Origin: a virus
Virus record (IMG/VR): IMGVR_UViG_3300007734_000428
Coordinates: 1-20,021 of that record
Reading direction: 5' to 3' (one strand)
DNA length: 20,021 nucleotides
Part shown: piece after piece, positions 6,091 through 18,727 of the stretch
Layout: each line of letters starts with the position of its first letter
Numbering within the stretch: position 1 is the stretch's first letter
Notes under the pieces: generated by a model
The model's input: only the letters and a program-made list of their open reading frames with translations
Told to the model about the DNA's origin: nothing
Databases searched by the model: none
Program-made: the position numbers and the translations under genes

Positions 6091-6834
6091 ATGGCAAGTA
6101 CGTTTAGTAATTTAGGATTAAATCTTCAGGCAACAGGTGAAAACTCCGGTACATGGGGTGCTATCACTAACGTTAACTTACAAGAAATTGATAATGCAAT
6201 CGCAGGTGTAATTACAGTTACATTAACTGGAAATACAACTTTAGCATTCACAACAAATTCATCTTCTACAACATATACTGACGAAGCAGGAAGAAATAAA
6301 ACAATTATTTTATCAGGTTCATTATCAGCAACAACGGTTACAGTTACAGTTCCAAATATAGAAAAAGATTATTACATTATAAATAATTCTGGAGCTACCG
6401 CTACAATTTCTTCAGGAGGTTCTACAACTGTATCTATTGCAACAGGATCTAAAAATATTGTTATTGTAAATCCAAGTGTAACTTCTGTAATATCTGCTTT
6501 ACCAGCTGACCAAGTTAATTCACCTGGTGGAACTACAAACTCTATTCAATATAACTCTGCAGGTTCTTTTGCAGGTTCAACTAATTTTACTTATGATGCA
6601 ACTAACGTATCGCTATTAAATAATGGTGCTTTAAGATTATATAATACTGCAGGTACTTTCTATACAGGTTTAAAAGTGGCAGCAGCTGCGGCAGCTACGG
6701 CTACCTTTACTTTACCATCGGCTGATGGTACAAACGGACAAGCTTTAATTACCAACGGTTCTGGTACTTTAAGCTTTGGTAATGCTGGAATTACAGCTGG
6801 AAAATCTATTGCATTAACTCTAGTTTTCGGATAA
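6091..6834 (+). CDS. Putative tail fibre protein
   Basis: This is a 247-residue protein. Its first 40 residues follow a plan common in phage fibre and collar proteins: NLGLNLQATGENSGTWGAIT, then NVNLQEIDNAIAGVITVTL. A beta-rich middle follows (LAFTTNSSSTTYTDEAG, NIEKDYYIINNSGATATI). Near the C-terminus, GGTTNSIQYNSAGSFAGSTNF, ALRLYNTAGTFYTGLKVAA and FTLPSADGTNGQALITNGSG form a pattern typical of trimeric tail fibres just before the tip, and the chain ends soon after. The expected receptor-binding tip is missing, so this may be a fibre stem or an adaptor for other fibre proteins, such as the glycine-rich ones encoded next. The start has only a weak ribosome binding site. Confidence 0.7.
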   Translation: MASTFSNLGLNLQATGENSGTWGAITNVNLQEIDNAIAGVITVTLTGNTTLAFTTNSSSTTYTDEAGRNKTIILSGSLSATTVTVTVPNIEKDYYIINNSGATATISSGGSTTVSIATGSKNIVIVNPSVTSVISALPADQVNSPGGTTNSIQYNSAGSFAGSTNFTYDATNVSLLNNGALRLYNTAGTFYTGLKVAAAAAATATFTLPSADGTNGQALITNGSGTLSFGNAGITAGKSIALTLVFG

Positions 6835-6856: not shown

Positions 6857-7231
6857 ATGGCTAATCCAAATATAGTATCAGTAAACTCGATATACGGTAA
6901 CACAACTGTATTTGCTCTTACTACAACTCTTACAAACGTATTACTTGCTAACGGAACTTCATCAAACAAAGTTTTAAAAATAGAATCAATCATGGTTGCA
7001 AACGTGACATCAGCAGCTACAAACGTTACAATACAACTTCACACAGCAGCAAATGGAACAGCAGGAACTTCATATGCATTTGCAAATGTTATTTCAATAC
7101 CATCAAGTGCAACTTTATCTGTAATAGATAAAAATAATACTTTCTATCTAATGGAAAACCAATCAATCGTTGGTGGTGCTAGTGCTAACTCTTCTTTACA
7201 AGTAGTTATTAGTTACGAAGATATAAGTTAA
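6857..7231 (+). CDS. Small conserved virion protein (beta-rich)
   Basis: This is a 124-residue protein with AAGGAG before the ATG. It is predicted all-beta: an opening with IVSVNSIYGNTTVFALTTTL, a strand with VLKIESIMVANVTSAATNVTI, a central FANVISIPSSATLSVIDKNNTFYLMENQSI and a closing LQVVISYEDIS. Such proteins accompany fibre genes in marine phages. Its plan ('kvl.iesi.vaN', 'ip....l.vid..nt.yL.e..si', last strand) resembles the proteins encoded at 1758 and 15983. It probably forms a small trimeric collar, fibre connector or decoration. There are no cysteines and no signal peptide. The function is not known. Confidence 0.6.
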   Translation: MANPNIVSVNSIYGNTTVFALTTTLTNVLLANGTSSNKVLKIESIMVANVTSAATNVTIQLHTAANGTAGTSYAFANVISIPSSATLSVIDKNNTFYLMENQSIVGGASANSSLQVVISYEDIS

Positions 7232-7246: not shown

Positions 7247-9082
7247 ATGGCAAATGGCGGAATTATCGGACCAATTAATGATCCAACTCGTGGACCTTAT
7301 ACCACATCATATACAGCATCAGGAACATATACATCACCAGGTTTTGGACCAGGTACAGCAACTATTTTAGTTGTAGCTGGAGGAGGTGGAGGTGGTGGTA
7401 ATAGAGGATCTGGCGGAGGTGGTGCTGGAGGTTTAAGAATAATTTCATGTCAACCAATTCCAAGTTCATCTTTTCCAATTACAGTTGGAGCAGGTGGTGC
7501 GGGTACACCAGTATCAACGGGAAGAGGAGTTAGTGGCGGGGATTCAATTTTTGCAACATCAAGTTCACCTATAACATCTACAGGAGGTGGAGGAGGTGGA
7601 GCAGGAGGAAATTGTGCTACAGCAAATACAGGCGGATCAGGCGGATCAGGTGGAGGAGGAAGTAAATCTGGAGTAGGTGCAACAGGACCAGCGGGAACAG
7701 GAAATTCACCGCCAGTTAGTCCACCACAAGGAAATTCAGGAGGAACTGCAGCAGGAACTACTTCTTGTAATGAGGCAGGTGGAGGTGGAGGTGGTTCGTC
7801 ATCTGTAGGTTCAAATGGAGTAACTCCTAGACAAGGCGGAGCAGGAGGATCAGGAACAAGTGTTACACCTTATTTTGGAACTTCACCACAACCTTTTTAT
7901 CAAGCGGATCAACCAAATAGAGGACCAAGTTCAACAGGAATTTTTGCAGGAGGTGGAGGTGGTGGAGCAGGACAACCAGGAGCGTCACCAACAGTTGGAG
8001 GAACAGGTGGACCTGGAGGAGGAGGTGCTGGAGTAGGTGGACCAGCTACTAATGGTTTTGCTGCAACAACTAATACAGGAGGTGGAGGTGGTGGAGCAGG
8101 AGAAGCTACAGGAGGAAATGGTGGATCAGGAATTGTTATAGTAAAACAAAATGCAGCAGGAGATGTAGCTGCACCAGGAGTCTGGTCAATTAATGACGCA
8201 TACAATTACAAGAAAGCTGGACAATGGGTATCGGCACCAGTGTCAGTAGATTATTTAGTAGTAGCAGGTGGAGCAGGAGCTGCAGGTGATAGAGGTGGCG
8301 GTGGTGGAGCCGGCGGTTATCGTACTTCATTTCCTGGAGGAACAAAAATTTCATTAAGTGGAGGAACATCTTATCCAATTACAGTTGGAGCTGGAGGAAC
8401 AGCTGGAAATTCTTCTACTAAAGGTGGCGATGGTAATCCATCTATATTTTCATCAATTACATCAGCAGGTGGAGGAGGATCTTCAGGAGCTTCAACACCA
8501 GCTTCTACAGCAAATTCGGGAGGATCAGGTGGAGGAGGAGGTGGTTATTGTGCTCCAAGAGGAACAGCAGGATCAGGAAATAGTCCACCAGTAAGTCCAC
8601 CGCAAGGTAATCCTGGGGGAAATGGAAATGGAACTGAAAGTGGGCCATCTTTAAGAGGAGCAGGTGGAGGTGGTGGAGCAGGTGCAGCTGGAACAACAGC
8701 AACAGCACCAACAGGAGTTGGACCAGGTGGAGCAGGAGCAACAAATTCAATTAGTGGATCACCAGTAACTTATGCAGGTGGTGGAGGTGGAGGAACACAA
8801 GTAGGAACTGGAGGAACCGGTGGACCAGGAGGAGGAGGAGCAGGAGCAGGATTTCCAGGATCAGGAGTTTCAGGAACAGCTAATACTGGAGGTGGAGGAG
8901 GTGGAGGAAATGGTGGAGCTAGCCCTGTTACAGGAGCAGGAGGTTCAGGAATCGTTATTATTAGAGCATCTGGTGGAATATCAGCAGTTGCTCCAGGAAC
9001 TAATACTTTAACTACATTGCCAGCGCCAGCAGGCGGTTGTCAGGTGGCTACATTTACAGTATCCGGTACTTTAACAACATAA
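7247..9082 (+). CDS. Glycine-rich tail adhesin A (two-domain)
   Basis: This is a 611-residue protein with a strong ribosome binding site (CGGAGG, then nine bases). Residues 1-30 are a short N-terminal region with MANGGIIGPI. Two glycine-rich domains follow, about 36-300 and 335-580. Each opens with a strand of the LVVAGG type followed by a Gly run and GGGGAGG, continues with PITVGAGG, SIF...ITS and further Gly runs, and closes with GGSGIVIV. A linker (GVWSINDAYNYKKAGQW, about 311-327) joins them. Each domain carries one PPVSPPQGN motif (residues 152-162 and 444-454). Such domains pack as polyglycine type II helices in the known T4-like gp38 adhesins, so a receptor-binding role is likely. The last 25 residues (LPAPAGGCQVATFTVSGTLT) are nearly the same in the sister protein at 9623. 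Confidence 0.75.
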   Translation: MANGGIIGPINDPTRGPYTTSYTASGTYTSPGFGPGTATILVVAGGGGGGGNRGSGGGGAGGLRIISCQPIPSSSFPITVGAGGAGTPVSTGRGVSGGDSIFATSSSPITSTGGGGGGAGGNCATANTGGSGGSGGGGSKSGVGATGPAGTGNSPPVSPPQGNSGGTAAGTTSCNEAGGGGGGSSSVGSNGVTPRQGGAGGSGTSVTPYFGTSPQPFYQADQPNRGPSSTGIFAGGGGGGAGQPGASPTVGGTGGPGGGGAGVGGPATNGFAATTNTGGGGGGAGEATGGNGGSGIVIVKQNAAGDVAAPGVWSINDAYNYKKAGQWVSAPVSVDYLVVAGGAGAAGDRGGGGGAGGYRTSFPGGTKISLSGGTSYPITVGAGGTAGNSSTKGGDGNPSIFSSITSAGGGGSSGASTPASTANSGGSGGGGGGYCAPRGTAGSGNSPPVSPPQGNPGGNGNGTESGPSLRGAGGGGGAGAAGTTATAPTGVGPGGAGATNSISGSPVTYAGGGGGGTQVGTGGTGGPGGGGAGAGFPGSGVSGTANTGGGGGGGNGGASPVTGAGGSGIVIIRASGGISAVAPGTNTLTTLPAPAGGCQVATFTVSGTLTT

Positions 9083-9092
9083 AATTAACCAC

Positions 9093-9121
9093 TTTCTTTT
9101 TATGAAAATTTATACTATAAC
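9093..9121 (+). promoter_or_regulatory. Weak possible promoter before the small conserved gene
   Basis: TTTCTT (9093-9098), a 17-base spacer and TATAAC (9116-9121) lie in the 60-base gap between the first adhesin and the next gene. The -35 element is poor and the region is very AT-rich, so this could be chance. Confidence 0.25.
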
Positions 9122-9142
9122 AAACAATAAGGAGTAAAAAAT

Positions 9143-9589
9143 ATGGCACATTTTGCAGAAGTAAACAGCTACGGTTTAGTATTAAGAGTTGTTGTTATTG
9201 ATAACAATGACGTAAACGCAAATGGCGGTGATCAATCACTGGGCGCAGAAGAAGCGGTTAAAAAAATCGTTCCTTTCACGTCTGGAAATAGATGGGTTCA
9301 AACTTCTTATAACAATAATTTCAGAAAACAATATGCTGGAATTGGTTACACGTTTGATTCCACAAAAAATAAATTCATTGCACCACAACCATTCGCATCT
9401 TGGTCGCTAGACGCTAATGACGACTGGCAAGCCCCAGTTGCATATCCAACAGTTACAACTTATGGAGATAACGTTAAATACTTTATTTCTTGGGATGAAG
9501 CTGTACAAAGATGGACTGGTAAAGACGATCAACAAAATTCATTCGCTTGGTCACCTGACACTTCATCTTGGATTGCTACAGGCAATTAA
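9143..9589 (+). CDS. Conserved marine-phage protein between adhesin genes, unknown function
   Basis: This is a 148-residue protein with AAGGAG before the ATG. The plan is well known from cyanophage and pelagiphage genomes: MAHFAEVNSYGLVLRVVVID, then NRWVQTSYNNNFRKQYAGIG with YTFDSTKNKFIAPQPFASW, then DDWQAPVAYPT and a Trp-rich end (YFISWDEAVQRWTG, AWSPDTSSWIA). The recurring Trp and aromatic residues in short beta units suggest a small modular beta protein. It is always close to fibre or tail genes in such phages, which suggests a virion or fibre-assembly role. The family is recognised from its pattern; the function is not known. Here it sits exactly between two duplicated adhesin genes. Confidence 0.65.
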   Translation: MAHFAEVNSYGLVLRVVVIDNNDVNANGGDQSLGAEEAVKKIVPFTSGNRWVQTSYNNNFRKQYAGIGYTFDSTKNKFIAPQPFASWSLDANDDWQAPVAYPTVTTYGDNVKYFISWDEAVQRWTGKDDQQNSFAWSPDTSSWIATGN

Positions 9590-9622
9590 GTTAAAGAGTT
9601 TTTAAACAGGAGTAAGTGACCT

Positions 9623-11419
9623 ATGGCCAAATCCAATGGCGGTATTATCGGCGCATTAAATCCAACATCGTTTGGAAAGTGTACTCAAACTATTGCCACA
9701 TCATCAACAACAGTAACAACGCAACCTGGAACTAGGTTAGTTGCAACAGCAGTTGTAGCTGGTGGTGGAGGAGGTGGAGGCCTTTATGGAGGTGGAGGAG
9801 CAGGAGGATTTAGAACTTCTTGTTCAATATCAGTTTGCGGAGCAACACCTTATTCAATTACAGTAGGTGCAGGTGGAGCAGTAGGTGGTTCAACTTCTTT
9901 ACCAGGTGCCAATGGAACAGATTCAATTTTTTCAACAATCACATCAGCAGGTGGAGGAGGTGGTGGACCTATTGGCCCATCAGCAGCTGGAGCTGCAGGC
10001 GGATCTGGTGGAGGAGGAAGAGGAACTGGAGTTGGTGGAGCAGGAAATACACCACCAGTAAGTCCCTCACAAGGAAATTCAGGAGGAGCTGGATCTACAG
10101 ATTCTAGTACATATACATCAGGAGGAGGTGGAGGTGGTGCAGGTTCTACAGGAACAAATGCATCAGGACCACCAACAATAACAGGAGGAGCAGGTGGAGC
10201 AGGAACAGATGTAAGCCCAATATTTGGACCAGGTTTACCTAATTCAGGAGTTTATGCAGGTGGTGGTGGAGGTGGATTAGATACTTGTGTAACTGGAAAT
10301 AGAGGAGCAGGAGGAACAGGTGGTGGTGGAACTGGAGCCAATATAAATATAGATAATGGAACAGCGGGAACTGCAAATACTGGAGGCGGAGGTGGAGGTG
10401 GTAGATCAGGTGGACCTAGTGGTGTTGGAAAAGCCGGCGGTTCAGGAATCGTTATCGTAAAAGAATTAAACAAGGCAAGTGGTGTTTGGAATTTGAAAAG
10501 TGCATTTGGGGCAATTAAAGCTGGTAGCTGGCCACAGACACAATGTTCAGTATCATTAGATTATTTAGTTATCGCTGGAGGTGGTGGAGGTGGTAATACA
10601 GCAGCTGGAGGTGGTGGTGCAGGTGGATATAGAACATCTTTTCCAGGAGGAACAAAATTAAAAATAGGAACTGGAGCATATCCAATTACAGTTGGAGCAG
10701 GTGGAACTGGATCTCCTTCTAATACAATAGCAGGTACTTCAGGATCACCTTCAATATTTTCAACAATTACTTCAGCAGGTGGAGGTGGTGGATCAAGTTC
10801 TTCAGGTCCAGGAGGTACGGGTGCATTAGCATTATCAGGAGGATCAGGTGGAGGTGGTGGAGGTGGTATAGGATCTAGTTTTTATGCTGGAGGAACAGGA
10901 AATAGTCCTCCAGTTAGTCCATCACAAGGTAATTCAGGAGGAACAACTACCGGTCCAGCTGGAGGACCAGCATATGCTGGATCAGGTGGAGGTGGAAGTA
11001 ATGCGGCAGGTTCAGCTGGAAGTTCTTCAGCGGCTGGAAATGGTGGATCTGGTACAGCAAATTTAATTTCTGGATGTTCAGTAACATACGCTGGAGGAGG
11101 TGGAGGTGCTTCAGATGCAAATAATCCAAGTTCTGGTTTAGGTGGATCAGGTGGAGGAGGTGCAGGTGGAATAGCATCTGTAAGATGTGGAACTCCAACA
11201 ATAGGTACAATTAACACTGGAGGTGGAGGTGGAGGAAAATCTTATAATAGTTCAGCACCAACAGGAGCAGGTGGATCAGGTATTGTAATAGTAAGAGCAC
11301 CAGGATCAGCAAATTTATCTGCAGCGCCAGGAACAAACACAGTTACAACATTACCGGCACCAGCTGGAGGATGTACTGTTGCGACATTCACGGTTTCTGG
11401 AACGCTTACAGTTAGCTAA
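9623..11419 (+). CDS. Glycine-rich tail adhesin B (two-domain), paralogue of adhesin A
   Basis: This is a 598-residue protein, AGGAG about 11 bases before the ATG. It starts with MAKSNGGIIGALNP, close to the start of its sister at 7247. The two glycine-rich domains cover about 39-283 and 309-575, with a linker (GVWNLKSAFGAIKAGSW) from residue 287. Each domain has PITVGAGG (or SITVGAGG), SIFSTITSAGGGGG and a PPVSPSQGN motif (residues 141-151 and 426-436), and ends in GGSGIVIV. The C-terminal TLPAPAGGCTVATFTVSGTL is nearly identical to that of adhesin A. Cysteines are scattered (GKCTQ, TSCSISVCG, DTCVTG, TQCSV, SGCSV, VRCG, GGCTV). It probably forms an alternative or partner receptor-binding tip. 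The gene pair looks like a duplication with divergence of the glycine loops. Confidence 0.75.
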   Translation: MAKSNGGIIGALNPTSFGKCTQTIATSSTTVTTQPGTRLVATAVVAGGGGGGGLYGGGGAGGFRTSCSISVCGATPYSITVGAGGAVGGSTSLPGANGTDSIFSTITSAGGGGGGPIGPSAAGAAGGSGGGGRGTGVGGAGNTPPVSPSQGNSGGAGSTDSSTYTSGGGGGGAGSTGTNASGPPTITGGAGGAGTDVSPIFGPGLPNSGVYAGGGGGGLDTCVTGNRGAGGTGGGGTGANINIDNGTAGTANTGGGGGGGRSGGPSGVGKAGGSGIVIVKELNKASGVWNLKSAFGAIKAGSWPQTQCSVSLDYLVIAGGGGGGNTAAGGGGAGGYRTSFPGGTKLKIGTGAYPITVGAGGTGSPSNTIAGTSGSPSIFSTITSAGGGGGSSSSGPGGTGALALSGGSGGGGGGGIGSSFYAGGTGNSPPVSPSQGNSGGTTTGPAGGPAYAGSGGGGSNAAGSAGSSSAAGNGGSGTANLISGCSVTYAGGGGGASDANNPSSGLGGSGGGGAGGIASVRCGTPTIGTINTGGGGGGKSYNSSAPTGAGGSGIVIVRAPGSANLSAAPGTNTVTTLPAPAGGCTVATFTVSGTLTVS

Positions 11420-11431
11420 TAATTCATCTAC

Positions 11432-11460
11432 TTGACAAATATTCTATAAATTTATATATA
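11432..11460 (+). promoter_or_regulatory. Likely promoter for the oxygenase genes
   Basis: TTGACA (11432-11437) is a perfect -35 consensus. After a 17-base spacer comes TATATA (11455-11460), four of six at -10. The expected start of transcription, about seven bases on, would be only about four bases before the ATG at 11471, giving a nearly leaderless message; the AGGA at 11460-11463 would then not be in it. It could equally serve as an AT-rich spacer, but the consensus -35 is the best in the window. Confidence 0.45.
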
Positions 11461-11470
11461 GGATTTAGAA

Positions 11471-12109
11471 ATGAATTTACAAAACTACTATTACTACTTT
11501 CAGAGTGCACTCACGCCTAGATTTTGTGATGAGTTAATTAAGTATGGAATATCACAACAAGAACAATTAGCTTTAACAGGTGGTCAAACTGAAAAAATTA
11601 ATAAAGGAAAAGATTTATCTGAAGAAGATTTAAAAGATTTAAAAAAGAAAAGAGATTCAAATATTGTATGGTTAAATGATCGTTGGATTTATAAAGAAAT
11701 TCAACCCTTTATACATCAAGCAAATAGATTAGCAGGTTGGAATTTTGATTGGGATTTTTCTGAATCATGTCAATTTACAAAATATAAATTAAATCAATTT
11801 TATGATTGGCATTGTGACTCTTGGGAGTCTGCATATGCAAATAAAGATAATCCAGATACATTTGGAAAAATTAGGAAGTTGTCGGTCACTTGTAGTCTGT
11901 CTTCGCCAGAAGATTATGAAGGTGGAGAATTAGAATTTGATTTTAGAAACATGGATCCTGATAAACCAACAATTAGAAAATGTGCAGAAATTAAACCAAG
12001 AGGTTCAATTGTTGTGTTCCCATCTCACGTTTGGCACCGCGTCAAAGCAGTTACAAAAGGAACAAGATATTCACTGGTTATTTGGAATCTTGGATATCCA
12101 TTTAAATAA
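11471..12109 (+). CDS. 2OG-Fe(II) oxygenase, prolyl 4-hydroxylase-like
   Basis: This is a 212-residue protein of the family whose members use 2-oxoglutarate, O2 and Fe(II) to hydroxylate proteins, small molecules or DNA. The iron-binding triad is visible: H114 and D116 in FYDWHCDSW, and H189 in FPSHVWHRV. R199 in GTRYSLVIW is the expected 2OG-binding arginine. The core QFTKYKLNQFYDWHCD, the GGELEFDF turn and the RGSIVVFPSHVWHRV strand match the P4H-type core domain. About 100 residues precede the core, with a charged insert (INKGKDLSEEDLKDLKKKRD). The gene follows a promoter-like site and is the first of three oxygenase genes, one base before an endonuclease gene. The substrate is unknown; prolines in the neighbouring adhesins are a candidate. 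Confidence 0.8.
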   Translation: MNLQNYYYYFQSALTPRFCDELIKYGISQQEQLALTGGQTEKINKGKDLSEEDLKDLKKKRDSNIVWLNDRWIYKEIQPFIHQANRLAGWNFDWDFSESCQFTKYKLNQFYDWHCDSWESAYANKDNPDTFGKIRKLSVTCSLSSPEDYEGGELEFDFRNMDPDKPTIRKCAEIKPRGSIVVFPSHVWHRVKAVTKGTRYSLVIWNLGYPFK

Positions 12110-12110
12110 T

Positions 12111-12548
12111 ATGCCACATAAAGATCCTATAAAAAGAAAAGAATATTCTAGACAATATATTCAAAAAAATAGAAAAGAACATAATACAAGAAATAAAAAT
12201 TGGAGAGATAAAAATAAAGAATATGGTTCTGAATATCAAAAAGAATATCGTAAAAAAAATGCAGAAATAATTAAAATTAAAAAAAGAGATTATGTTTTAA
12301 GAAAAGCTTATGGTCTTTCTACAGAAAAATATAATCAAATATTTGAAAGACAAAATGGTAAATGTGCTATTTGTAATAAACATCAAAAAGAATTATCTAG
12401 ACCTTTAAATGTAGATCATTGTCACAATACAAATAAAATTAGAGATTTACTTTGTGATAGATGTAATTTAACAGTTGGATATGTTGAAAATTGTAATATA
12501 GATGTTATATTACAGTATATAAATAAACACAGAAAGGACGTAAACTAA
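12111..12548 (+). CDS. Endonuclease VII-type HNH endonuclease
   Basis: This is a 145-residue protein of the recombination endonuclease VII family. It starts at the ATG at 12111, one base after the upstream stop (the frame is open further upstream only inside the previous gene). The Zn-binding CxxC pairs are C85/C88 in GKCAICNKH and C115/C118 in LCDRCN; the DHCH motif at 102-105 holds the catalytic beta-beta-alpha metal site. The first 65 residues are Lys/Arg/Asn-rich and helical (RKEYSRQYIQKNRKEHNTRN), a common DNA-binding start in freestanding phage endonucleases. Base use is even more A-rich than in the neighbours. It may be a selfish homing gene that cuts related phage genomes, or a DNA-branch resolvase. 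Its position inside an oxygenase operon favours the homing view. Confidence 0.8.
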   Translation: MPHKDPIKRKEYSRQYIQKNRKEHNTRNKNWRDKNKEYGSEYQKEYRKKNAEIIKIKKRDYVLRKAYGLSTEKYNQIFERQNGKCAICNKHQKELSRPLNVDHCHNTNKIRDLLCDRCNLTVGYVENCNIDVILQYINKHRKDVN

Positions 12549-13270
12549 TGGCAAAAACAGATCAATTAAATTCATCTATATATTTCTCTACACCTGTTTA
12601 CTCAATCGAAATTCCAGAGTGGGTAGATCATGTAGATAAAGTTTGTGATAAATATATTAAAGCAGCTAAAGATAATAATAGAAAAAATATTAAACAACGT
12701 GAAAAAGAATTAGGTAAAAAAGTAGGTGATTTTTCAATGTCACATCATTCTACATCATTAGTTGGTGATCCAGACTTAAAAGAATTACAAGAATATATTG
12801 GTTCAACTTCATGGAATGTTTTAGATCATATGGGTTATGATTTAACTAACTATGAATTATTTTGGACTGAATTTTGGGTACAACAATTTGCAGAAAAAGG
12901 AGCTGGCGCGCACAGCCCTCACGCACACTACGACAATCACATTAGTGGTTTTTATTTTTTAAGATGTTCAGATAAAACGTCTTTACCAGTATTCCACGAT
13001 CCCCGTCCAGGTAAGCTCATGACACAATTACCTTTAAAAAATGAAAAAGAAATTACGTTAGGAACTGACAAAATTCATTATCGTCCTAAACCAGGTACAA
13101 TGATATTTATTCCAGCGTATTTAACACATGAATATATCGTTGATGCAGGTATTGAAGATTTCAGATTTATTCATTTTAATCTACAAGCTGTAAGAAAAAT
13201 GATTACTGATACAGTAAGAGTACAAGCTAGAGCGGAAAACAAAACAGAAACTAAAAAGGAGAAAAAATGA
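12548..13270 (+). CDS. 2OG-Fe(II) oxygenase, TIGR02466-like
   Basis: This is a 240-residue protein whose ATG overlaps the previous stop by one base. It belongs to the putative 2OG-Fe(II) oxygenase group with a core of the form HxH...SGFYFL...PVFHDPRP...KPGTMIFIPAYLTHEY. The metal ligands are likely H125 or H127 with D129 (SPHAHYDNHISGFYF) and H194 (YLTHEY), with R206 near the end (EDFRFIHFNL) as a candidate 2OG anchor. The N-terminal half is helical and starts with a phage-typical IYFSTPVYSIEIPEWV; the C-terminus is a charged tail (ENKTETKKEKK). The active-site DNA around 12902-12930 is more GC-rich than the rest. The substrate is unknown. It is the second oxygenase of the cluster and is not similar to the first outside the motif pattern. 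Confidence 0.75.
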   Translation: MAKTDQLNSSIYFSTPVYSIEIPEWVDHVDKVCDKYIKAAKDNNRKNIKQREKELGKKVGDFSMSHHSTSLVGDPDLKELQEYIGSTSWNVLDHMGYDLTNYELFWTEFWVQQFAEKGAGAHSPHAHYDNHISGFYFLRCSDKTSLPVFHDPRPGKLMTQLPLKNEKEITLGTDKIHYRPKPGTMIFIPAYLTHEYIVDAGIEDFRFIHFNLQAVRKMITDTVRVQARAENKTETKKEKK

Positions 13271-13923
13271 GTTTTAAAAAAAATAAATACACAGTAATTA
13301 AAGGAGCAATATCAGAAGATCTTGCAAAGTTTTGTTATGATTATTTCATGATGAAAAGAACAGTTGCAAGAACTATGTTTGATACAAAGTACATAAGTCA
13401 ATTTACAGAATACTTCGGTGTATGGAATGATCAACAAGTTCCAGATACTTATTCACACTATTCTGACATCGTAATGGAAACATTACTTGTTAAACTTCTT
13501 CCTATCATGGAAAAAACAACAGGATTAAAATTAAACTCTAATTATTCATATGCTAGAATTTATAAAAAAGGAGATGTATTACATCGCCATAAAGATAGAT
13601 TCTCATGTGAAATATCTACAACTATGCATTTAGGTGGTGGTTGTTGGCCAATATATCTTGAACCAGATGCATCATTAGGTGGTGTAGATGAAAAAACAGG
13701 AAACTATAAACCATCAAAATCTAAAGGTGTTAAAGTATTATTAGAACCAGGTGATATGTTAGTGTATCGTGGAAATGAATTAGAACATTGGAGAGATAAA
13801 TTAACTTTTGATGACTGTGGTCAAGTGTTCTTACATTACAATAATGTTGAAACTAAAGGATCTAAAGAAAATATATACGATCGTAGACCTCATTTAGGTC
13901 TTCCCGCTTGGTTTAAAAAGTGA
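13267..13923 (+). CDS. 2OG-Fe(II) oxygenase, third family member
   Basis: This is a 218-residue protein, with its ATG four bases before the previous gene ends. The HxD dyad is H108/D110 in YKKGDVLHRHKDRFSCEIS, and the distal His is H174 in GNELEHWRD. The PGDMLVYRGNELEHWRD segment is the classic C-terminal half of the double-stranded beta-helix. The usual arginine for 2OG is not clear in this segment; the following QVFLHYN strand is the last of the core. The region between (GGVDEKTGNYKPSKSKG) is an inserted loop. The ending YDRRPHLGLPAWF is seen in related phage proteins. The substrate is unknown. It ends just upstream of the hairpin that covers the next start codon. Confidence 0.75.
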   Translation: MSFKKNKYTVIKGAISEDLAKFCYDYFMMKRTVARTMFDTKYISQFTEYFGVWNDQQVPDTYSHYSDIVMETLLVKLLPIMEKTTGLKLNSNYSYARIYKKGDVLHRHKDRFSCEISTTMHLGGGCWPIYLEPDASLGGVDEKTGNYKPSKSKGVKVLLEPGDMLVYRGNELEHWRDKLTFDDCGQVFLHYNNVETKGSKENIYDRRPHLGLPAWFKK

Positions 13924-13924
13924 T

Positions 13925-13951
13925 ATAAAATCTCTTTTATAGAGGTTTTAT
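13925..13951 (+). promoter_or_regulatory. Hairpin that covers the ribosome binding site and start codon
   Basis: Bases 13925-13935 pair with 13941-13951 in an 11-bp stem with one U-G pair and a five-base loop. The 3' arm holds the Shine-Dalgarno AGAGG (13941-13945) and the first two bases of the ATG at 13950. In the folded state the gp10-like gene should be poorly translated unless ribosomes coming from the upstream gene open it, so translational coupling is likely. Confidence 0.55.
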
Positions 13952-15803
13952 GCCATTAAGCAAATTACAATTTAAACCAGGAATAGATAAACAAAATACT
14001 CAATACGGCGCAGAAGGCGGTTGGGTAGATTGTGATATGGTCCGTTTTAGATACGGCGTTCCTGAAAAGATAGGTGGATGGTCACCTGCAGTTGGTAACA
14101 ACTTAATAGGAGTTGCGCGAGACATTCATACCTATACAGATTTAGCAGGAGACTCATTAGCTGCCATTGGTACTGATAGAAAACTATATTTATACTATGA
14201 TAACAACTTTTACGACATTACACCTTTATCAACTACAATCCCCGCAGTATTCTCATTTACTTCCGGCACAACTATAGTTAATGTTACAGCAACTTCTAAT
14301 GGAGCGGTAGCAGGAGACTTTGTTACATTTTCAGGAGTATCAGGAGTTAGTGTTGTAAATATTACTAATTCAAACATGGCTCAAGAATTTGAGATTCAAA
14401 CAATTACTGATGCTAATAATTTTACAATTGATGTTGCATCTATTGCAACACCAGGAGTAGTTACTACTTCTGGATCAGCAACTTCAGCAGCATTTCAAAT
14501 AAATGTAGGTACAGATGTTACACAAATTGGTAATGGATGGGGTGCAGCTTCGTGGGGTTTTTCTACTTGGAATACAGCAAGACCATCAGGAGTTATTACA
14601 GCTAATCCAAGAATTTGGAAGATTGATAACTTTGGTGAAGATATAATTGCAACAATTGTAGGTGGTAAAACTTATTACTTTGATACATCAGCATTTTTAC
14701 CTGCAAGAAATACTAGAGCTACATTATTATCCAATGCTCCAACACAATCTAATTACATGACAGTATCTCCAAGAGATAGACACGTTATATTCCTTGGTAC
14801 TCAAACAACACCAGGATCAACTACAACTTATGACCCAATGTCCGTGCTCTTCGGTTCACAAGAATCTATTACTGATTTTACACCGAATGCAACTAACACA
14901 GCAGGATTTCAAAGATTATCATCAGGTAATAGAATTGTAACTGCAGTTCCAACAAGAGGAGATATATTAATATTAACTAATACATCAGCTCATTCTATGC
15001 AGTTTGTAGGCCCACCATTTACATTCTCATTTAAACAAATTGGTACGAACTGTGGAGCTTTAGGAATACATTCAGCAGTAGAAGCCGAAAACGTTGTTTA
15101 TTGGATCGCGGATGGTGCTTTCTATTTATTTGACGGGGTTGTTAAACAGATACCTTGTTCAGTACAAGATTATGTATTTCAAGATATAAATACAGATGAA
15201 CATGCTACAATTTATGCTGGAGTTAATTTAGAGTTTTCAGAAGTTAATTGGTTCTATGCATCAACAGGATCTACAGTAATAGATAAAGTAGTGACTTATA
15301 ACTATCTTGAAAGATTATGGACTATTGGAACTTTAGCTAGAACTACTTGGGCTTCTAAAGACGTGTTTGCAAATCCACTTGCAACTAAATATATGCCAAA
15401 CTCTACAACACTTGCTCAACCGACAGTTATCGGTTTAACATCTGGTGTATCTACTTTATATGATCAAGAAACAGGAACAAATGATGATACAAGTGCAATT
15501 ACCGCTTACATTACTTCAGGTGATGTTGATATTGTAGATGGTGATAATTCTTTATTTATTAAACGCTATATTCCAGATTTTAAAGATCAACAAGGTTCTC
15601 TTAATATGCAATTTCTAGTTAGACAATATCCAGGTTCAGTTCAAACAGTTGCATCAAGCACTTTAGTTTATTCTACAACAACTAAAGTCGACATGCGCGC
15701 GCGAGGACGTCAGGTTGCGATTAAAATTATAAGCACAGATGTTGACACTAAATGGAGATACGGAACTCTTCGTATAGACGGTCAACAGGATGGTTTGAGA
15801 TAA
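13950..15803 (+). CDS. P22 gp10-like tail hub / packaged-DNA stabilisation protein
   Basis: This is a 617-residue protein that starts with MPLSKLQFKPGIDKQNTQYG followed by AEGGWVDCDMVRFRYGVPEKIGGW, a pattern seen in the tail hub or nozzle proteins of P22-like (gp10) and T7-like (gp12) podoviruses. These form the tube beneath the adaptors that keeps the DNA in and guides it out. The first third has a beta-propeller-like pattern (ARDIHTYTDLAGDSLAAIGT, KLYLYYDN). Residues about 101-163 form an extra module like those in the protein at 2839, followed by a GWGAASWGFSTWN element at 196-208. The rest is beta-rich with typical pieces (PTRGDILILTNTSAHSMQFVG, YWIADGAFYLFDGVVKQIP) and ends in VDMRARGRQVAIKI. 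Its stop overlaps the next start in TAATG. Confidence 0.75.
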   Translation: MPLSKLQFKPGIDKQNTQYGAEGGWVDCDMVRFRYGVPEKIGGWSPAVGNNLIGVARDIHTYTDLAGDSLAAIGTDRKLYLYYDNNFYDITPLSTTIPAVFSFTSGTTIVNVTATSNGAVAGDFVTFSGVSGVSVVNITNSNMAQEFEIQTITDANNFTIDVASIATPGVVTTSGSATSAAFQINVGTDVTQIGNGWGAASWGFSTWNTARPSGVITANPRIWKIDNFGEDIIATIVGGKTYYFDTSAFLPARNTRATLLSNAPTQSNYMTVSPRDRHVIFLGTQTTPGSTTTYDPMSVLFGSQESITDFTPNATNTAGFQRLSSGNRIVTAVPTRGDILILTNTSAHSMQFVGPPFTFSFKQIGTNCGALGIHSAVEAENVVYWIADGAFYLFDGVVKQIPCSVQDYVFQDINTDEHATIYAGVNLEFSEVNWFYASTGSTVIDKVVTYNYLERLWTIGTLARTTWASKDVFANPLATKYMPNSTTLAQPTVIGLTSGVSTLYDQETGTNDDTSAITAYITSGDVDIVDGDNSLFIKRYIPDFKDQQGSLNMQFLVRQYPGSVQTVASSTLVYSTTTKVDMRARGRQVAIKIISTDVDTKWRYGTLRIDGQQDGLR

Positions 15804-15976
15804 TGTCAAAACTAGATCAACCAAGACTTGCAAACGCTACAACAGAATATAGTCAGCAACAGATGGACCAGATTATTAGAACATTAGAACAAATGGTGTT
15901 ACAATTAAATAATACCTTTACACAAGATGTACAAGATGTTAATGAAGCTGAATCTTGGTATTTTATTAGAGTATAA
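15803..15976 (+). CDS. Small helical tail-associated protein
   Basis: This is a 57-residue protein. The ATG at 15803 overlaps the preceding stop in TAATG. The chain opens with MSKLDQPRLANATTEYSQQQ and continues in an amphipathic helix, MDQIIRTLEQMVLQLNNTF, then ends with a short NEAESWYFIRV. The helix spacing suggests a small coiled coil. Small proteins with a similar start and helix lie near fibre genes in several marine phages; none is known to me in function. The tight coupling to the tail-hub gene suggests that it is made in step with it, perhaps as a fibre linker. Confidence 0.65.
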   Translation: MSKLDQPRLANATTEYSQQQMDQIIRTLEQMVLQLNNTFTQDVQDVNEAESWYFIRV

Positions 15977-15982
15977 AGAATA

Positions 15983-16318
15983 ATGTCTAACGTATATAAA
16001 AACGCAATCTATAAACCTACAACTACGGTTAGTACAACTGTATACACATGCAACGCTACGGCAAGAGCTGTTATTCAAAATATACAAGTAACAAATCAAT
16101 CAGGGACACATGCTGTCCAAGCATATATTTATAAAAGTGCTAATAGTACTACATTAGAATTTTCTCATGCATCTTTAGGTGCAAATGATACAGTTAATAT
16201 GTGTAAAGGACCTGTTATATTACAAGAAGGAGATGCTATATTAATAAGCACCGATTCAACAGTAGTGACAGGTATTGTATCAATATTAGAAGTGAACAGA
16301 GGATCATTAACAACGTAA
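15983..16318 (+). CDS. Small beta-rich virion protein
   Basis: This is a 111-residue protein that begins six bases after the preceding stop. It is predicted beta-rich: TTVSTTVYTCNATARAVIQNI, then a strand VTNQSGTHAVQAYIYKS, then VNMCKGPVILQEGDAILISTD and a last TGIVSILEVNRGS. The 'ILQEGDAI' turn before a final strand, together with the 'iqnIqVtN' segment, resembles the plan of the protein at 6857, so the two could share a fold. Two cysteines (TCNAT, MCKG) are present. It probably belongs to the virion tail; the precise role is unknown. Its stop overlaps the next start in TAATG. Confidence 0.6.
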   Translation: MSNVYKNAIYKPTTTVSTTVYTCNATARAVIQNIQVTNQSGTHAVQAYIYKSANSTTLEFSHASLGANDTVNMCKGPVILQEGDAILISTDSTVVTGIVSILEVNRGSLTT

Positions 16319-16491
16319 TGAAAGAAATAAAAGTACTTTGTGATTCAGAGATCACAATTGTAAATTTAAAGACCGGATACATCTATAAGAATGAAGCAGA
16401 AGCGCAAGCTGATAAAACTGTTGATCCTAAAGATATTAGACGTGATGTTAAAATTATAGTTCCAACCATACCATTATTTAGTGAAACATGA
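16318..16491 (+). CDS. Small protein of 57 residues, unknown function
   Basis: The ATG at 16318 shares its A with the preceding stop (TAATG), and the TGA at 16489-16491 overlaps the next ATG (ATGA), so this short gene fits the chain exactly, which is the main evidence that it is real. The protein reads MKEIKVLCDSEITIVNLKTG, then YIYKNEAEAQADKTVDPKDI, then RRDVKIIVPTIPLFSET. It has an alternating beta start, a small helix with NEAEAQAD, and a basic strand RRDVKIIVP. The segment VNLKTGYIYKNEAEA recalls a motif in other small marine phage proteins found beside fibre genes. It has no known function. Confidence 0.65.
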   Translation: MKEIKVLCDSEITIVNLKTGYIYKNEAEAQADKTVDPKDIRRDVKIIVPTIPLFSET

Positions 16492-17084
16492 TTACTGGAG
16501 ATAGCAGAGAATATGAATTTTTTGATGAAGCTATAAAATTATTAAAAAATCCAATAGGAATTAGTGTTGAGATAGGTGTTCGTCGTGGCATGGGTAGTAA
16601 ATGTATTATTGATGCTTATAGAAAATATCATCCTCATATAAAATTAAATCATTTAGGAATAGATCCTTATGGTAATATTTTATATCGCACAGCAGATAAT
16701 GATCTAGGTGGAAGATTAGATTATACAAATAAAATGAAGCAAGAAGCGTTGTTAGATTTAATTAAAGAATATCCAGAATTTAATTTAGTAAATCTAGAAG
16801 ATTTAGAATTCTTTAAAAGATTTGCAGATGGTTATCCAATTTATAATGAAAATAAAATACTATTAACTCAATATGAAGTAGTTCATTTTGATGGGCCACA
16901 TGATACAGATTCTGTTATGAAAGAAGTTAATTTTTTTGTAGAAAGAAAACCTAAACAATGTGTGTATATATTTGACGATATAGATACTCATGATATTGAC
17001 AAGATAGGTGAACATCTGATATGGAATGGTTTTAAAGAATTTAAAAAAGGTGAGAGAAAGGCAGTCTATACATATGAATCCTAA
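16488..17084 (+). CDS. Class I SAM-dependent methyltransferase-like protein
   Basis: This is a 198-residue protein whose ATG overlaps the preceding TGA. The N-terminal half has an SAM-binding pattern: motif I with VEIGVRRGMGS (27-37), then a strand LNHLGIDPYG ending in D59, as expected for the acidic residue that binds the SAM ribose. Further on, YEVVHFDGPHD (129-139) and CVYIFDDIDTHD (158-169) correspond to the later core strands of the Methyltransf_24-like group. The target is unknown: a sugar or lipid, or a protein side chain. It is the first of three overlapping genes, followed by two glycosyltransferases, which suggests that it acts on glycans or on glycosylated products. The usual GxGxG is replaced by GVRRGMG, which is common in this group. 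Confidence 0.7.
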   Translation: MITGDSREYEFFDEAIKLLKNPIGISVEIGVRRGMGSKCIIDAYRKYHPHIKLNHLGIDPYGNILYRTADNDLGGRLDYTNKMKQEALLDLIKEYPEFNLVNLEDLEFFKRFADGYPIYNENKILLTQYEVVHFDGPHDTDSVMKEVNFFVERKPKQCVYIFDDIDTHDIDKIGEHLIWNGFKEFKKGERKAVYTYES

Positions 17085-18006
17085 AGGTGGGACGGAGATT
17101 TTAAAAGAGCAATTGCTTGCTCAACTACCAGAACAATCATTAGAGGGAATTAATTTAATTGGTTCTATTTGTCATCCATCTCTTGTTAAACCAGATCAAA
17201 CTAACATTCTTTGGCAACATCTAAACTACGATCAACCTAACGTTAAGTTAATGAAAGATCGTAAATTTGTAGACTCTATTGATTATTTTATCTATGTTAG
17301 TCATTGGCAATACAATAGATTTAGAGAAGTTTATCAGATCCCAGAATACAAATCATTTGTAATTAAAAATGCTACTCATGCATTTAGTACAGTTGAAAAA
17401 CAAAAAGATAATAAGATTAAATTATTATATACATCTACACCATGGCGAGGACTTATTGTTTTACTAAAAGCTATTGAGATTTTAAATAAAACTAGAGATG
17501 ATTTTGAAGTGGATATTTATTCATCTACTAAAATATATGGATCAACATTTGATGAAAATGAAAAAGATAAATTTACTGATTTATTTGATAAATGTAAAAA
17601 TACTAAAAATGTTAATTATCATGGATATACTTTTAATGGTGAAATAAGAAGAGCTGTAGAAAAAGCTCATATCTATGCTTATCCATCTATCTTTGAAGAA
17701 ACATCATGCCTTGCAATTATAGAAGCAATGTCAGCGGGCTGTCATGTGGTGACCACGAATTACGGAGCGTTGCCGGAGACCTGTGGTGAATTCGCAACGA
17801 TGATTGAATTTGATTCTAGTGGCCAGAACCTAATAGAAAGATACGCAGAAACGTTAAATTCTGTTATTGACAATTATAAAAATAATTTATATAAAGATGA
17901 TTTAGAAATGCAAATTAAATACTATAACAAAAACTATTCATGGGAAACCAGAATACAAGAATGGATAAACTTTTTTAATTATGTCAGAACAAAAAAAACA
18001 AGTTAA
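17074..18006 (+). CDS. GT-B glycosyltransferase (GT1/GT4-like)
   Basis: This is a 310-residue protein. The ATG at 17074 is used because it gives the glycine loop (MNPKGGTEILKEQLL) at the N-terminus; it overlaps the preceding gene by 11 bases. An in-frame ATG at 17026 would add 16 residues and a larger overlap. The C-terminal domain has the donor-site signature EETSCLAIIEAMSAGCHVV (E209-x7-E217) and, before it, KLLYTSTPWRGLIVLLKAIE with NVNYHGYTF, all typical of the GT4 class. The N-terminal domain is shorter than in cellular enzymes, starting directly at the GGTE loop. The DNA around 17739-17800 is more GC-rich than the rest of the gene. The likely activity is transfer of a sugar from a nucleotide-sugar donor to an unknown acceptor. 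Confidence 0.8.
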   Translation: MNPKGGTEILKEQLLAQLPEQSLEGINLIGSICHPSLVKPDQTNILWQHLNYDQPNVKLMKDRKFVDSIDYFIYVSHWQYNRFREVYQIPEYKSFVIKNATHAFSTVEKQKDNKIKLLYTSTPWRGLIVLLKAIEILNKTRDDFEVDIYSSTKIYGSTFDENEKDKFTDLFDKCKNTKNVNYHGYTFNGEIRRAVEKAHIYAYPSIFEETSCLAIIEAMSAGCHVVTTNYGALPETCGEFATMIEFDSSGQNLIERYAETLNSVIDNYKNNLYKDDLEMQIKYYNKNYSWETRIQEWINFFNYVRTKKTS

Positions 18007-18727
18007 GCTATTTATAGCAACACCAGCATTCGGTCATCAAGTAACAACTAATTATGCAAACAGTTTATTAAAGTTTGTATCAACATCTCATCCAAGATTA
18101 GCAGTATCATCAGCAGTACATATGCAATCAGGAATGGCTTTAGTTACTCAAGCAAGAAATAATTGTGTAGCTTATTTTCTTAATTCAGACTGCACGCATT
18201 TTTTATTTATAGACGCGGACATTGGATTTGAACCAGAAGCAATTTATAGATTAATAGAAAGAGATGTACCATTATGTTTAACACCTTATCCTGTAAAAGG
18301 TTATGGTAAAGATCATCAATTACAGTTCATTGTACATTTTCCAGATAAAGATAACGTAAGAATAGATAAAGATGGATTTACAGAAATCACTGCAGGACCT
18401 ACTGGATTCATGATGATTAAAAGAGAAGTGTTTGAAAAACTTGCAGAAAAATATCCAGAACGAAAGACTGTTAATAAACAATTAGTCGGCAACAAAGTAG
18501 AGACTATGGAAAAAGGTTGGTATACATTCTTTGAAACAGCTCAAGATCCTGAAAACGGATACCTTGGTGAAGACATTGCTTTCTGCAGATTATGGACTAA
18601 TATTGGCGGTAAAATATACGCGGATACACAAACTCCGTTAACGCATTTTGGATCGCATGCATTTCATGGTAGTTTAAACATGATGTTTGCTAAACAAAAA
18701 CCAATTGACGATAAGCCAAAAGAGTAG
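17981..18727 (+). CDS. GT-A glycosyltransferase (GT2-like fold)
   Basis: This is a 248-residue protein that overlaps the upstream glycosyltransferase by 26 bases in another frame. The nucleotide-sugar-binding fold is visible: KLFIATPAFGHQ (9-20), ALVTQARNNCVAYFLNSD, then the DxD motif in FLFIDADIGF (D78 and D80), which binds the metal and the diphosphate. ITAGPTGFMMIKREVFE (136-151) and GYLGEDIAFC (193-202) match the acceptor-side glycine and catalytic ED motif of the GT-A class. The end LTHFGSHAFHGS supplies a further candidate metal-binding His. No membrane helix is present, so the enzyme should be soluble. An A8 run lies inside the overlap. Acceptor unknown; adhesins, DNA and host glycans are possible. 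Confidence 0.8.
   Translation: MSEQKKQVKLFIATPAFGHQVTTNYANSLLKFVSTSHPRLAVSSAVHMQSGMALVTQARNNCVAYFLNSDCTHFLFIDADIGFEPEAIYRLIERDVPLCLTPYPVKGYGKDHQLQFIVHFPDKDNVRIDKDGFTEITAGPTGFMMIKREVFEKLAEKYPERKTVNKQLVGNKVETMEKGWYTFFETAQDPENGYLGEDIAFCRLWTNIGGKIYADTQTPLTHFGSHAFHGSLNMMFAKQKPIDDKPKE

Follow-up and report, generated by a model that had tools for sequence, protein, structure and literature searches.

For the chlorovirus PBCV-1, a virus-encoded peptidyl-prolyl hydroxylase that acts on viral proteins has been reported (Eriksson 1999, cited in PMC9301287), and Mimivirus enzymes hydroxylate and glucosylate the virus's own fibrous, glycine-rich proteins, in that case collagens (PMC9546862). We analyze a 20,021-base virus fragment from IMG/VR (record IMGVR_UViG_3300007734_000428, positions 1 to 20,021; hereafter, the window), whose genes run from the major head protein (1-577) via tail proteins to the tail hub and beyond, and in which two polyglycine adhesin genes precede three genes for 2-oxoglutarate (2OG)-Fe(II) oxygenases, which we call Oxy1, Oxy2, and Oxy3. 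From sequence comparison, we put at roughly 75% the probability that Oxy1, probably with Oxy3, is a peptidyl-prolyl hydroxylase acting on the phage's own polyglycine adhesins. Over hundreds of related sequences, Oxy1 occurs where the adhesin tip loops have particular prolines and is missing where they lack them; this aquatic phage thus probably hydroxylates the proteins with which it recognizes its host.

The window enzymes share the fold or profile class and the HxD...H motif of the PBCV-1 prolyl 4-hydroxylase and of bacterial prolyl 4-hydroxylases (from P. putida, acting on EF-Tu, and B. anthracis). Unlike the PBCV-1 enzyme, they belong to tailed bacteriophages, are co-inherited with a swappable adhesin, and covary with named residues in it, their activity being predicted. 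Compared with Mimivirus, the putative substrate is a polyglycine sandwich or a Kelch-like repeat rather than collagen, the hydroxylase is of another family, and the glycosyltransferases are unlinked to the adhesin. Glycine-rich receptor-binding domains are also found in gp38 of Salmonella phage S16 and gp24 of cyanophage Pam3, and the Pam3 paper treats this domain as the tip that binds the receptor, its distal end being variable (PMC9608196). The window adhesins differ in having two such domains per protein, proline loops, and neighboring oxygenases instead of only a chaperone. Phage-encoded modification of the virion is also represented by glycosylated mycobacteriophage virions; here the modification would be hydroxylation and its target the receptor-binding tip.

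Cyanophages and pelagiphages commonly carry 2OG-Fe(II) oxygenases, which are read as serving DNA repair or iron and haem metabolism, or whose role is given as unknown; those oxygenases and the accompanying “ferrochelatases” are of the same gene families as ours (PHROG 61, 81, 2954). Clokie and colleagues cite the DNA-repair reading (Clokie 2010, PMC2984593), and Wittmers and colleagues treat co-located 2OG oxygenases and “ferrochelatases” of HTVC023P-type phages as auxiliary metabolic genes (Wittmers 2022, PMC9599517). The Phold study describes marine phage oxygenases as structurally like human EGLN3 and gives no substrate (Phold 2026, PMC12774648), and in a Baltic Sea study, the use that viruses make of prolyl 4-hydroxylase is said to remain “cryptic” (PMC9301287). 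Our search, with most subscription journals and preprints outside its scope, found no paper linking these oxygenases to phage adhesins or to proline content. For a subset of these enzymes, we can now predict a substrate at residue level, namely prolines in the loops of the receptor-binding adhesins that the phage itself encodes. If this is right, tailed phages alter their host-recognition tips after translation, in which case a gene sequence would not suffice to predict binding; expressing an adhesin in a foreign host that lacks the enzyme may give a protein that behaves differently from the one in the virion, and the supply of oxygen, iron, and 2-oxoglutarate in the infected cell could affect infectivity.

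Adhesin prolines and Oxy1

The adhesin and oxygenase features of the window are the following.

7247..9082, + strand: polyglycine adhesin 1, 611 residues, PF21722, phrog_2295, two Gly domains
7706..7729, +: loop SPPVSPPQ in adhesin 1 domain 1, predicted hydroxylation site (second Pro 7712-7714)
8582..8605, +: loop SPPVSPPQ in adhesin 1 domain 2 (second Pro 8588-8590)
9143..9589, +: phrog_7759 protein (MAHFAE...), a polyglycine-module marker in podoviruses and T4-like phages
9623..11419, +: polyglycine adhesin 2, 598 residues, PF21722
10049..10072, +: loop TPPVSPSQ in adhesin 2 domain 1 (second Pro 10055-10057)
10904..10927, +: loop SPPVSPSQ in adhesin 2 domain 2 (second Pro 10910-10912)
11471..12109, +: Oxy1, prolyl-hydroxylase-like 2OG-Fe(II) oxygenase (PF13640, E 3.5e-16)
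12111..12548, +: endonuclease VII/HNH gene (PF02945, E 8e-19)
12548..13270, +: Oxy2, 2OG-Fe(II) oxygenase (PF13759, E 9e-11)
13267..13923, +: Oxy3, 2OG oxygenase by predicted fold, labelled ferrochelatase elsewhere (PHROG 2954)

Both adhesins match PF21722 Gly_rich_2 (E 2.5e-30 and 4.7e-34 for adhesins 1 and 2), with 33% and 32% glycine. Each carries the proline loop twice, as two copies of GNSPPVSPPQGN in adhesin 1 and as GNTPPVSPSQGN and GNSPPVSPSQGN in adhesin 2. An earlier note on this DNA had called the motif conserved, and it is indeed no chance feature, since 68 of 76 full-length relatives hold at least one copy. An AlphaFold model of adhesin 2 (predicted local distance difference test, pLDDT, 84; predicted template modeling score, pTM, 0.54, the domain arrangement thus being unsure) matched the Pam3 fibre 7ypx in Foldseek (E 7e-5), as well as the tail tip of mycobacteriophage Bxb1 and the glycine-rich domains of ALK/LTK. 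By PF21722 and the Foldseek matches to the Pam3 fibre and ALK/LTK, the adhesins have the glycine-rich domain of gp38/Pam3 gp24-type proteins, and, lying among the tail genes, they are putative receptor-binding proteins of the virion.

The sequence of the loop varies with the oxygenases nearby. In loci without a Gly-type Oxy1, it reads N-T-P-S-T-S-P-S-Q-G-N instead of N-T-P-P-V-S-P-P-Q-G-N. Loci were sampled with DNA patterns placed on the loop only and blind to the oxygenases; two patterns fix the second position, and a neutral one was run to remove the bias of the fixed position. With the neutral pattern, Oxy1 occurred in 24 of 25 proline-loop loci versus 1 of 21 non-proline loci (Fisher 7.6e-11), and with the two fixed patterns in 61/62 versus 3/77. 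The Fisher p-values of the loop sampling (7.6e-11 and 5e-42) overstate independence and are not probabilities of independent events, because only two to three phylogenetic pairs are supported. We scored 225 columns over 444 adhesin domains (263 loci). The five columns that tell most about Oxy1 all hold proline in Oxy1-positive domains and mainly Ser, Thr, or Asn in Oxy1-negative ones. Proline makes up 7.4% of the polyglycine domain with Oxy1 versus 3.3% without, and where the majority residue differs (50 columns), ten columns switch to proline and none away from it. The covarying prolines of adhesin 1 are residues 77, 156, 160, 214 and 377, 448, 452, 456, 506. Base composition would act in the opposite direction, GC content being 0.37 in Oxy1-positive and 0.45 in Oxy1-negative loci.

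It is Oxy1, not Oxy2 alone, that tracks adhesin proline. All 23 loci with Oxy2 but without Oxy1 have non-proline loops, and loci with Oxy1 and Oxy3 but without Oxy2 divide 18 to 2 in favor of proline. Oxy3 nearly always accompanies Oxy1, and the two are inseparable in the covariation data. A separate compositional difference concerns cysteine, which is enriched in the Oxy1-positive polyglycine domains (1.0% vs 0.3% over the 444 domains), for example in SVCG and GCSVTYAGG of window adhesin 2.

Oxygenase classes and the exchanged cassette

All three enzymes belong to the 2OG-Fe(II) oxygenase superfamily, Oxy2 through its PF13759 match above the cut-off. A profile of 28 relatives groups Oxy1 with the peptidyl-prolyl hydroxylases: searched against the Protein Data Bank (PDB), it matched PKHD hydroxylase PiuC best (1e-15), and also the prolyl 4-hydroxylases of PBCV-1 (1.4e-11), P. 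putida (4e-5), and B. anthracis and Chlamydomonas (both ~1e-4), as well as prolyl 3-hydroxylase 1. The metal and 2OG residues H114, D116, H189, and R199 (HxD...H...R) are invariant. Oxy1 is accordingly a predicted peptidyl-proline hydroxylase that would yield hydroxyproline.

Oxy3 has no Pfam match. Its AlphaFold2 model (pLDDT 90, pTM 0.88) is closest in Foldseek to the P. putida prolyl 4-hydroxylase/EF-Tu structure 4iw3 (E 4e-9), with Dictyostelium PHD and proline hydroxylases also matching; there are 690 PDB matches at E <= 0.001, the best ones being prolyl hydroxylases. Residues H108, D110, and H174 (HxD...H) are invariant. The 2OG-binding residue is absent from its usual H+10 place, and R176 is an invariant candidate for it. 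We rejected the label of ferrochelatase given to Oxy3 in PHROG 2954 and 3531 and in the pelagiphage literature, because the predicted fold matches 2OG oxygenases and not ferrochelatase, and the HxD...H residues are invariant. Judging from the model, the cyanophage and pelagiphage proteins labelled “ferrochelatase” in PHROG 2954/3531 are apparently 2OG oxygenases; arguments built on a ferrochelatase partner gene should be revised, and a widespread misannotation can be corrected.

The edges of the adhesin cassette and the genes beyond it are as follows.

6091..6834, + strand: gp6091, tail protein, phrog_31104, with the upstream cassette edge inside its 3' part
6857..7231, +: 124-residue protein inside the swapped region
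13950..15803, +: tail hub / stabilization protein, phrog_3287, the downstream cassette edge
16488..17084, +: methyltransferase, PF13578 Methyltransf_24, backbone
17062..18006, +: GT-B glycosyltransferase, backbone (PF00534, E 8e-18)
17981..18727, +: GT-A-like (glycosyltransferase) protein, backbone (phrog_1574; weak PF00535)

Phage homologues of the hub are annotated as “stabilization protein,” and we take the hub to be of the P22 gp10 type. With the hub as a neutral anchor, we gathered 80 IMG/VR contigs plus isolates, and found one of two cassettes upstream of it. The polyglycine cassette has the order Gly, phrog_7759, Gly, Oxy1, (endonuclease VII), Oxy2, Oxy3. The other, which we call Kelch-like from its repeat pattern, as Pfam does not recognize these adhesins, consists of repeat adhesins, a 104-residue protein, a coiled protein, a sulfotransferase, an APS-kinase-like protein, an HxGH nucleotidyltransferase, Oxy2b, Oxy1, Oxy2, and Oxy3. 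Pairs of loci whose hubs are near-identical carry opposite cassettes; their DNA homology gives out roughly two thirds of the way along gp6091 and returns at the start codon of the hub. For L020 versus L023 it ends at 1278 and restarts at 8552, and for the window versus L044 it ends at 6598 and restarts at 13948.

To follow the exchange, we counted changes of adhesin type on each gene tree against shuffled labels, taking labels from the adhesins seen in the contig; a first set of Kelch labels used Oxy2b and would have been circular, and the rerun with adhesin-only labels gave the same result. With these labels, adhesin type changes once on each of the Oxy1, Oxy2, and Oxy3 trees (shuffled means 5.6, 9.6, and 5.5), versus 9 times on the hub tree (8.9), 4 on GT-B (3.5), and 2 on GT-A (3.3, with 47 of 500 shuffles as low). 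Over all loci, there are 1 change for Oxy1 (n = 223; shuffled 42), 1 for Oxy3 (n = 160; 37), and 2 for Oxy2 (n = 177; 47), against 18 for the hub (n = 82; shuffled 23, minimum 18). The adhesin and its matching oxygenases are inherited as one exchangeable block, with oxygenase clades sorting perfectly by adhesin type. The hub, methyltransferase, GT-B, and GT-A stay with the phage backbone outside the swapped block, and their trees show no association with adhesin type.

The earlier note had suggested surveying relatives for co-occurrence of oxygenases and polyglycine adhesins. Taken as mere presence or absence, the survey does not bear out the note's expectation, and it was discarded as evidence: Kelch-like cassettes hold oxygenases equally often, every labelled locus of either type having at least one. 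The association lies instead in the oxygenase clades and in the adhesin residues.

Several features of the cassettes are recorded here as separate observations. Among labelled loci, 12 of 26 polyglycine cassettes carry the endonuclease VII/HNH gene, as against 0 of 25 of the Kelch type; it is probably a homing endonuclease and possibly spreads the adhesin module. One contig (L054, 1624-5001) is a hybrid in which a non-proline-loop polyglycine adhesin is followed by Kelch-type sulfotransferase, kinase, and nucleotidyltransferase genes. In L139, L144, L145, L160, L161, and HTVC027P (L083, 12292-13953), the oxygenase group lies on the opposite strand and still beside tail-fibre genes, so the adjacency survives inversion.

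Other phage families and a second adhesin fold

The linkage extends beyond this phage group. A tblastn search with Oxy1, the enzyme being the only query and no adhesin included, reached 342 phage records. The best matches outside the group were HTVC033P (65%), S-SM1 (47%), HTVC008M (46%), S-RSM4 (44%), and Mosig (40%); in all five, a polyglycine adhesin adjoins the Oxy1 relative, and most also have the phrog_7759 protein. The gene order of HTVC033P is identical (Gly, phrog_7759, Gly, Oxy1, Oxy2, Oxy3). In IMG/VR, a polyglycine adhesin lies within 4 kb of 58 of the 61 Oxy1 relatives with enough upstream DNA; of the other three, one is truncated, one has an adhesin just under threshold, and L282 is a true exception. 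As a control, the uvsW-linked cyanophage oxygenase had a polyglycine adhesin in 0 of 5 loci. The reverse search, tblastn of a polyglycine adhesin against isolate phages, gave one record only, probably owing to low-complexity filtering. Among the neighbors of these relatives are a tryptophan-halogenase annotation near the tail genes of HTVC008M (L245, 2525-3919) and, beside the oxygenase run of Mosig (L247, 11832-13068), heme oxygenase and PcyA-like annotations.

The proline difference recurs in the Kelch-like adhesins. Their proline content is 3.6% (2.4-5.2) in 39 loci with Oxy1 and Oxy3 versus 0.9% (0.7-1.8) in 10 loci (7 distinct contigs) without them, and their inter-repeat loops are 12% versus 2% proline. 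General proteome composition was rejected as an explanation, since the corresponding ratio is 3.9 for the Kelch adhesin and 0.7 to 1.3 for other proteins of the same loci; Oxy2 and Oxy2b of these loci differ slightly in proline.

Isolates show the same. The polyglycine region contains 3.8-7.5% proline in six Oxy1-positive phages versus 1.1-3.6% in five Oxy1-negative ones, with no overlap (p = 0.004). Confounding by host or GC was likewise rejected: HTCC1062 is the recorded host strain of HTVC023P, HTVC033P, HTVC008M, and Mosig and also of the contrasting, Oxy1-negative HTVC025P, and the GC bias runs in the opposite direction. Within the single genome of HTVC023P, the four adhesins before Oxy1 have 7.6-10.8% proline and the separate glycine-rich gp70 has 2.0%.

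With somewhat less confidence than for the window itself, we lean toward a general reading in which aquatic tailed phages of several families share an exchangeable tip-modification system, each adhesin coming with its own prolyl hydroxylases, hydroxyproline lying at the host contact, and sulfate possibly being added in the Kelch type. The latter thought comes from the sulfotransferase (PF13469/PF00685), APS-kinase-like P-loop protein (PF01583), and HxGH nucleotidyltransferase (PF01467) found in more than 40 Kelch-type loci (e.g., L055, 5962-7500), which form a possible compact sulfation pathway and whose gene families suggest a second modification. The Kelch adhesin repeats TEEYDGSxW contain acid-flanked tyrosines resembling tyrosine sulfation sites.

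Competing explanations and the backbone enzymes

In the mechanism we propose, Oxy1, perhaps with Oxy3, would hydroxylate prolines of the adhesin encoded next to it, in the infected cell and either ahead of assembly or while it proceeds. The main targets would be the loops between glycine-rich stretches, in particular the second proline of N-[T/S]-P-P-x-S-P-x-Q-G-N, and a few other prolines. Selection would keep the enzyme and the prolines together, adhesin and matching hydroxylases would travel as one exchangeable block, and the unrelated Kelch-like adhesin would follow the same proline rule with its own hydroxylase set. The hydroxyl groups might make the loops rigid and the adhesin more stable, form hydrogen bonds to the receptor in its recognition, or anchor further groups.

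Several points weigh against this reading. The hydroxylation chemistry is something we infer, and covariation with adhesin prolines bears on it indirectly. The adhesin module has two old states between which it rarely changes: on the adhesin-domain and phrog_7759 trees, only two to three independent pairs are supported, and these are concordant or undecided. Proline positions 2 and 4 are partly confounded by the sampling pattern, and there are exceptions in both directions (L266, L389, L403, L444 and L508, L525, L535). On the Oxy2b tree, Kelch cassettes lost Oxy1 just once, though on the hub tree 3 of 3 supported pairs agree, and several T4-like adhesins lack the exact loop and are raised only in overall proline. 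Finally, block exchange is mechanical, and genes in the interior of a block would be co-inherited without any functional link.

This last point also speaks for an alternative that we consider improbable: that the oxygenases act elsewhere, on host metabolism or a host protein such as EF-Tu, and merely share a recombination block with adhesins whose old lineages differ in prolines. Independent transitions are few, as this hitch-hiking would allow, and Oxy3 resembles a hydroxylase acting on EF-Tu. However, hitch-hiking does not predict that proline should be the differing residue (majority switches of 10 to 0), that it should be tracked by Oxy1 and not by Oxy2, or that proline-rich adhesins should stand only beside Oxy1 within one genome. 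Nor does it predict the same pattern in two unrelated adhesin folds, in T4-like and podovirus lineages, and in phages of one host strain. The case for hydroxylation of the phage's own adhesins stands because residue specificity, two unrelated adhesin folds, and several phage families agree.

The earlier note had gone further, suggesting that hydroxylated adhesins may then be glycosylated or methylated by the GT-B, GT-A, and methyltransferase. Its hydroxylation half is well supported by profile, co-inheritance, covariation, and replication, and can be tied to Oxy1 and the second loop proline; the three oxygenases it treated alike are not equivalent, given the non-proline loops of all Oxy2-only loci. 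The decoration half is unsupported as stated, and we regard the full pathway as doubtful. In its favor, the glycosyltransferase and methyltransferase genes follow the hub wherever a locus in this hub group bears Oxy1 and extends at least 4 kb further downstream (11 of 11), and other phages are thought in the literature to glycosylate virion proteins. However, these genes lie outside the swapped unit and their trees are indifferent to adhesin type. The same genes occur alongside Kelch cassettes that lack Oxy1, and in HTVC027P, where the region read holds neither a Gly nor a Kelch adhesin. In HTVC033P, the 16.6 kb read contain the entire adhesin-oxygenase cassette and no annotated glycosyltransferase. 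Exchange at the methyltransferase slot is not coupled to that of the adhesin cassette. The Mimivirus-type arrangement, in which a hydroxylase and a glycosyltransferase are co-inherited and serve the same fibre protein, is thus not found here. Glycosylation of adhesin hydroxyprolines by the backbone enzymes is possible, if unsupported. As an observation on the slot itself, the position before GT-B is occupied by either a Methyltransf_24 or an FkbM-like enzyme, in some cases joined by another methyltransferase-like gene (window 16488-17084; L021 11352-12702).

DNA hypermodification, in which the oxygenases and glycosyltransferases would act on nucleobases in the manner of TET/JBP plus a base glucosyltransferase, is very unlikely. 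Searched as a single sequence, Oxy3 alone of the three weakly matches Naegleria TET (E 0.013), and related pelagiphages hold separate DNA hypermodification genes (PMC9599517). The TET match is not borne out by the fold, which is closest to prolyl hydroxylases, and the published genes lie near DNA polymerase, not at the adhesin cassette. Oxy1-Oxy3 of the window gave no PF12851 (Tet_JBP) match, and neither did 14 related records, some of them fragments, in a search run with no positive control; the same 14 records, again partly fragments, gave no PF00145 (cytosine C5-methyltransferase). This explanation predicts neither proline covariation nor block exchange with adhesins. An iron- or haem-linked auxiliary metabolism, proposed for HTVC023P-type phages from their co-located “2OG oxygenase + ferrochelatase” genes (PMC9599517), has next to no probability in our estimation, since both the predicted fold and the active-site residues mark the “ferrochelatase” as a 2OG oxygenase, and adhesin linkage is not predicted.

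As to the layout of the window, the gene set listed in the earlier note (adhesins, three oxygenases, hub, methyltransferase, and glycosyltransferases) was recovered in full at the same coordinates, co-directional and tightly spaced. Intergenic distances range from -26 to +60 bases, except for 169 bases before the methyltransferase; the hub starts 26 bases beyond Oxy3, and two small open reading frames lie between the hub and the methyltransferase gene. Two details of that description changed: the oxygenases do not form an uninterrupted run, as the endonuclease VII/HNH gene splits Oxy1 from Oxy2, and the two adhesins, both present, are separated by the phrog_7759 gene (9143-9589), both of these intervening genes having been overlooked. 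At a conserved position adjoining the cassette, the protein encoded at 4749-6053 ends in a C-terminal (N/S)PTTGQ(T/S)W repeat (window ~5870-6050).

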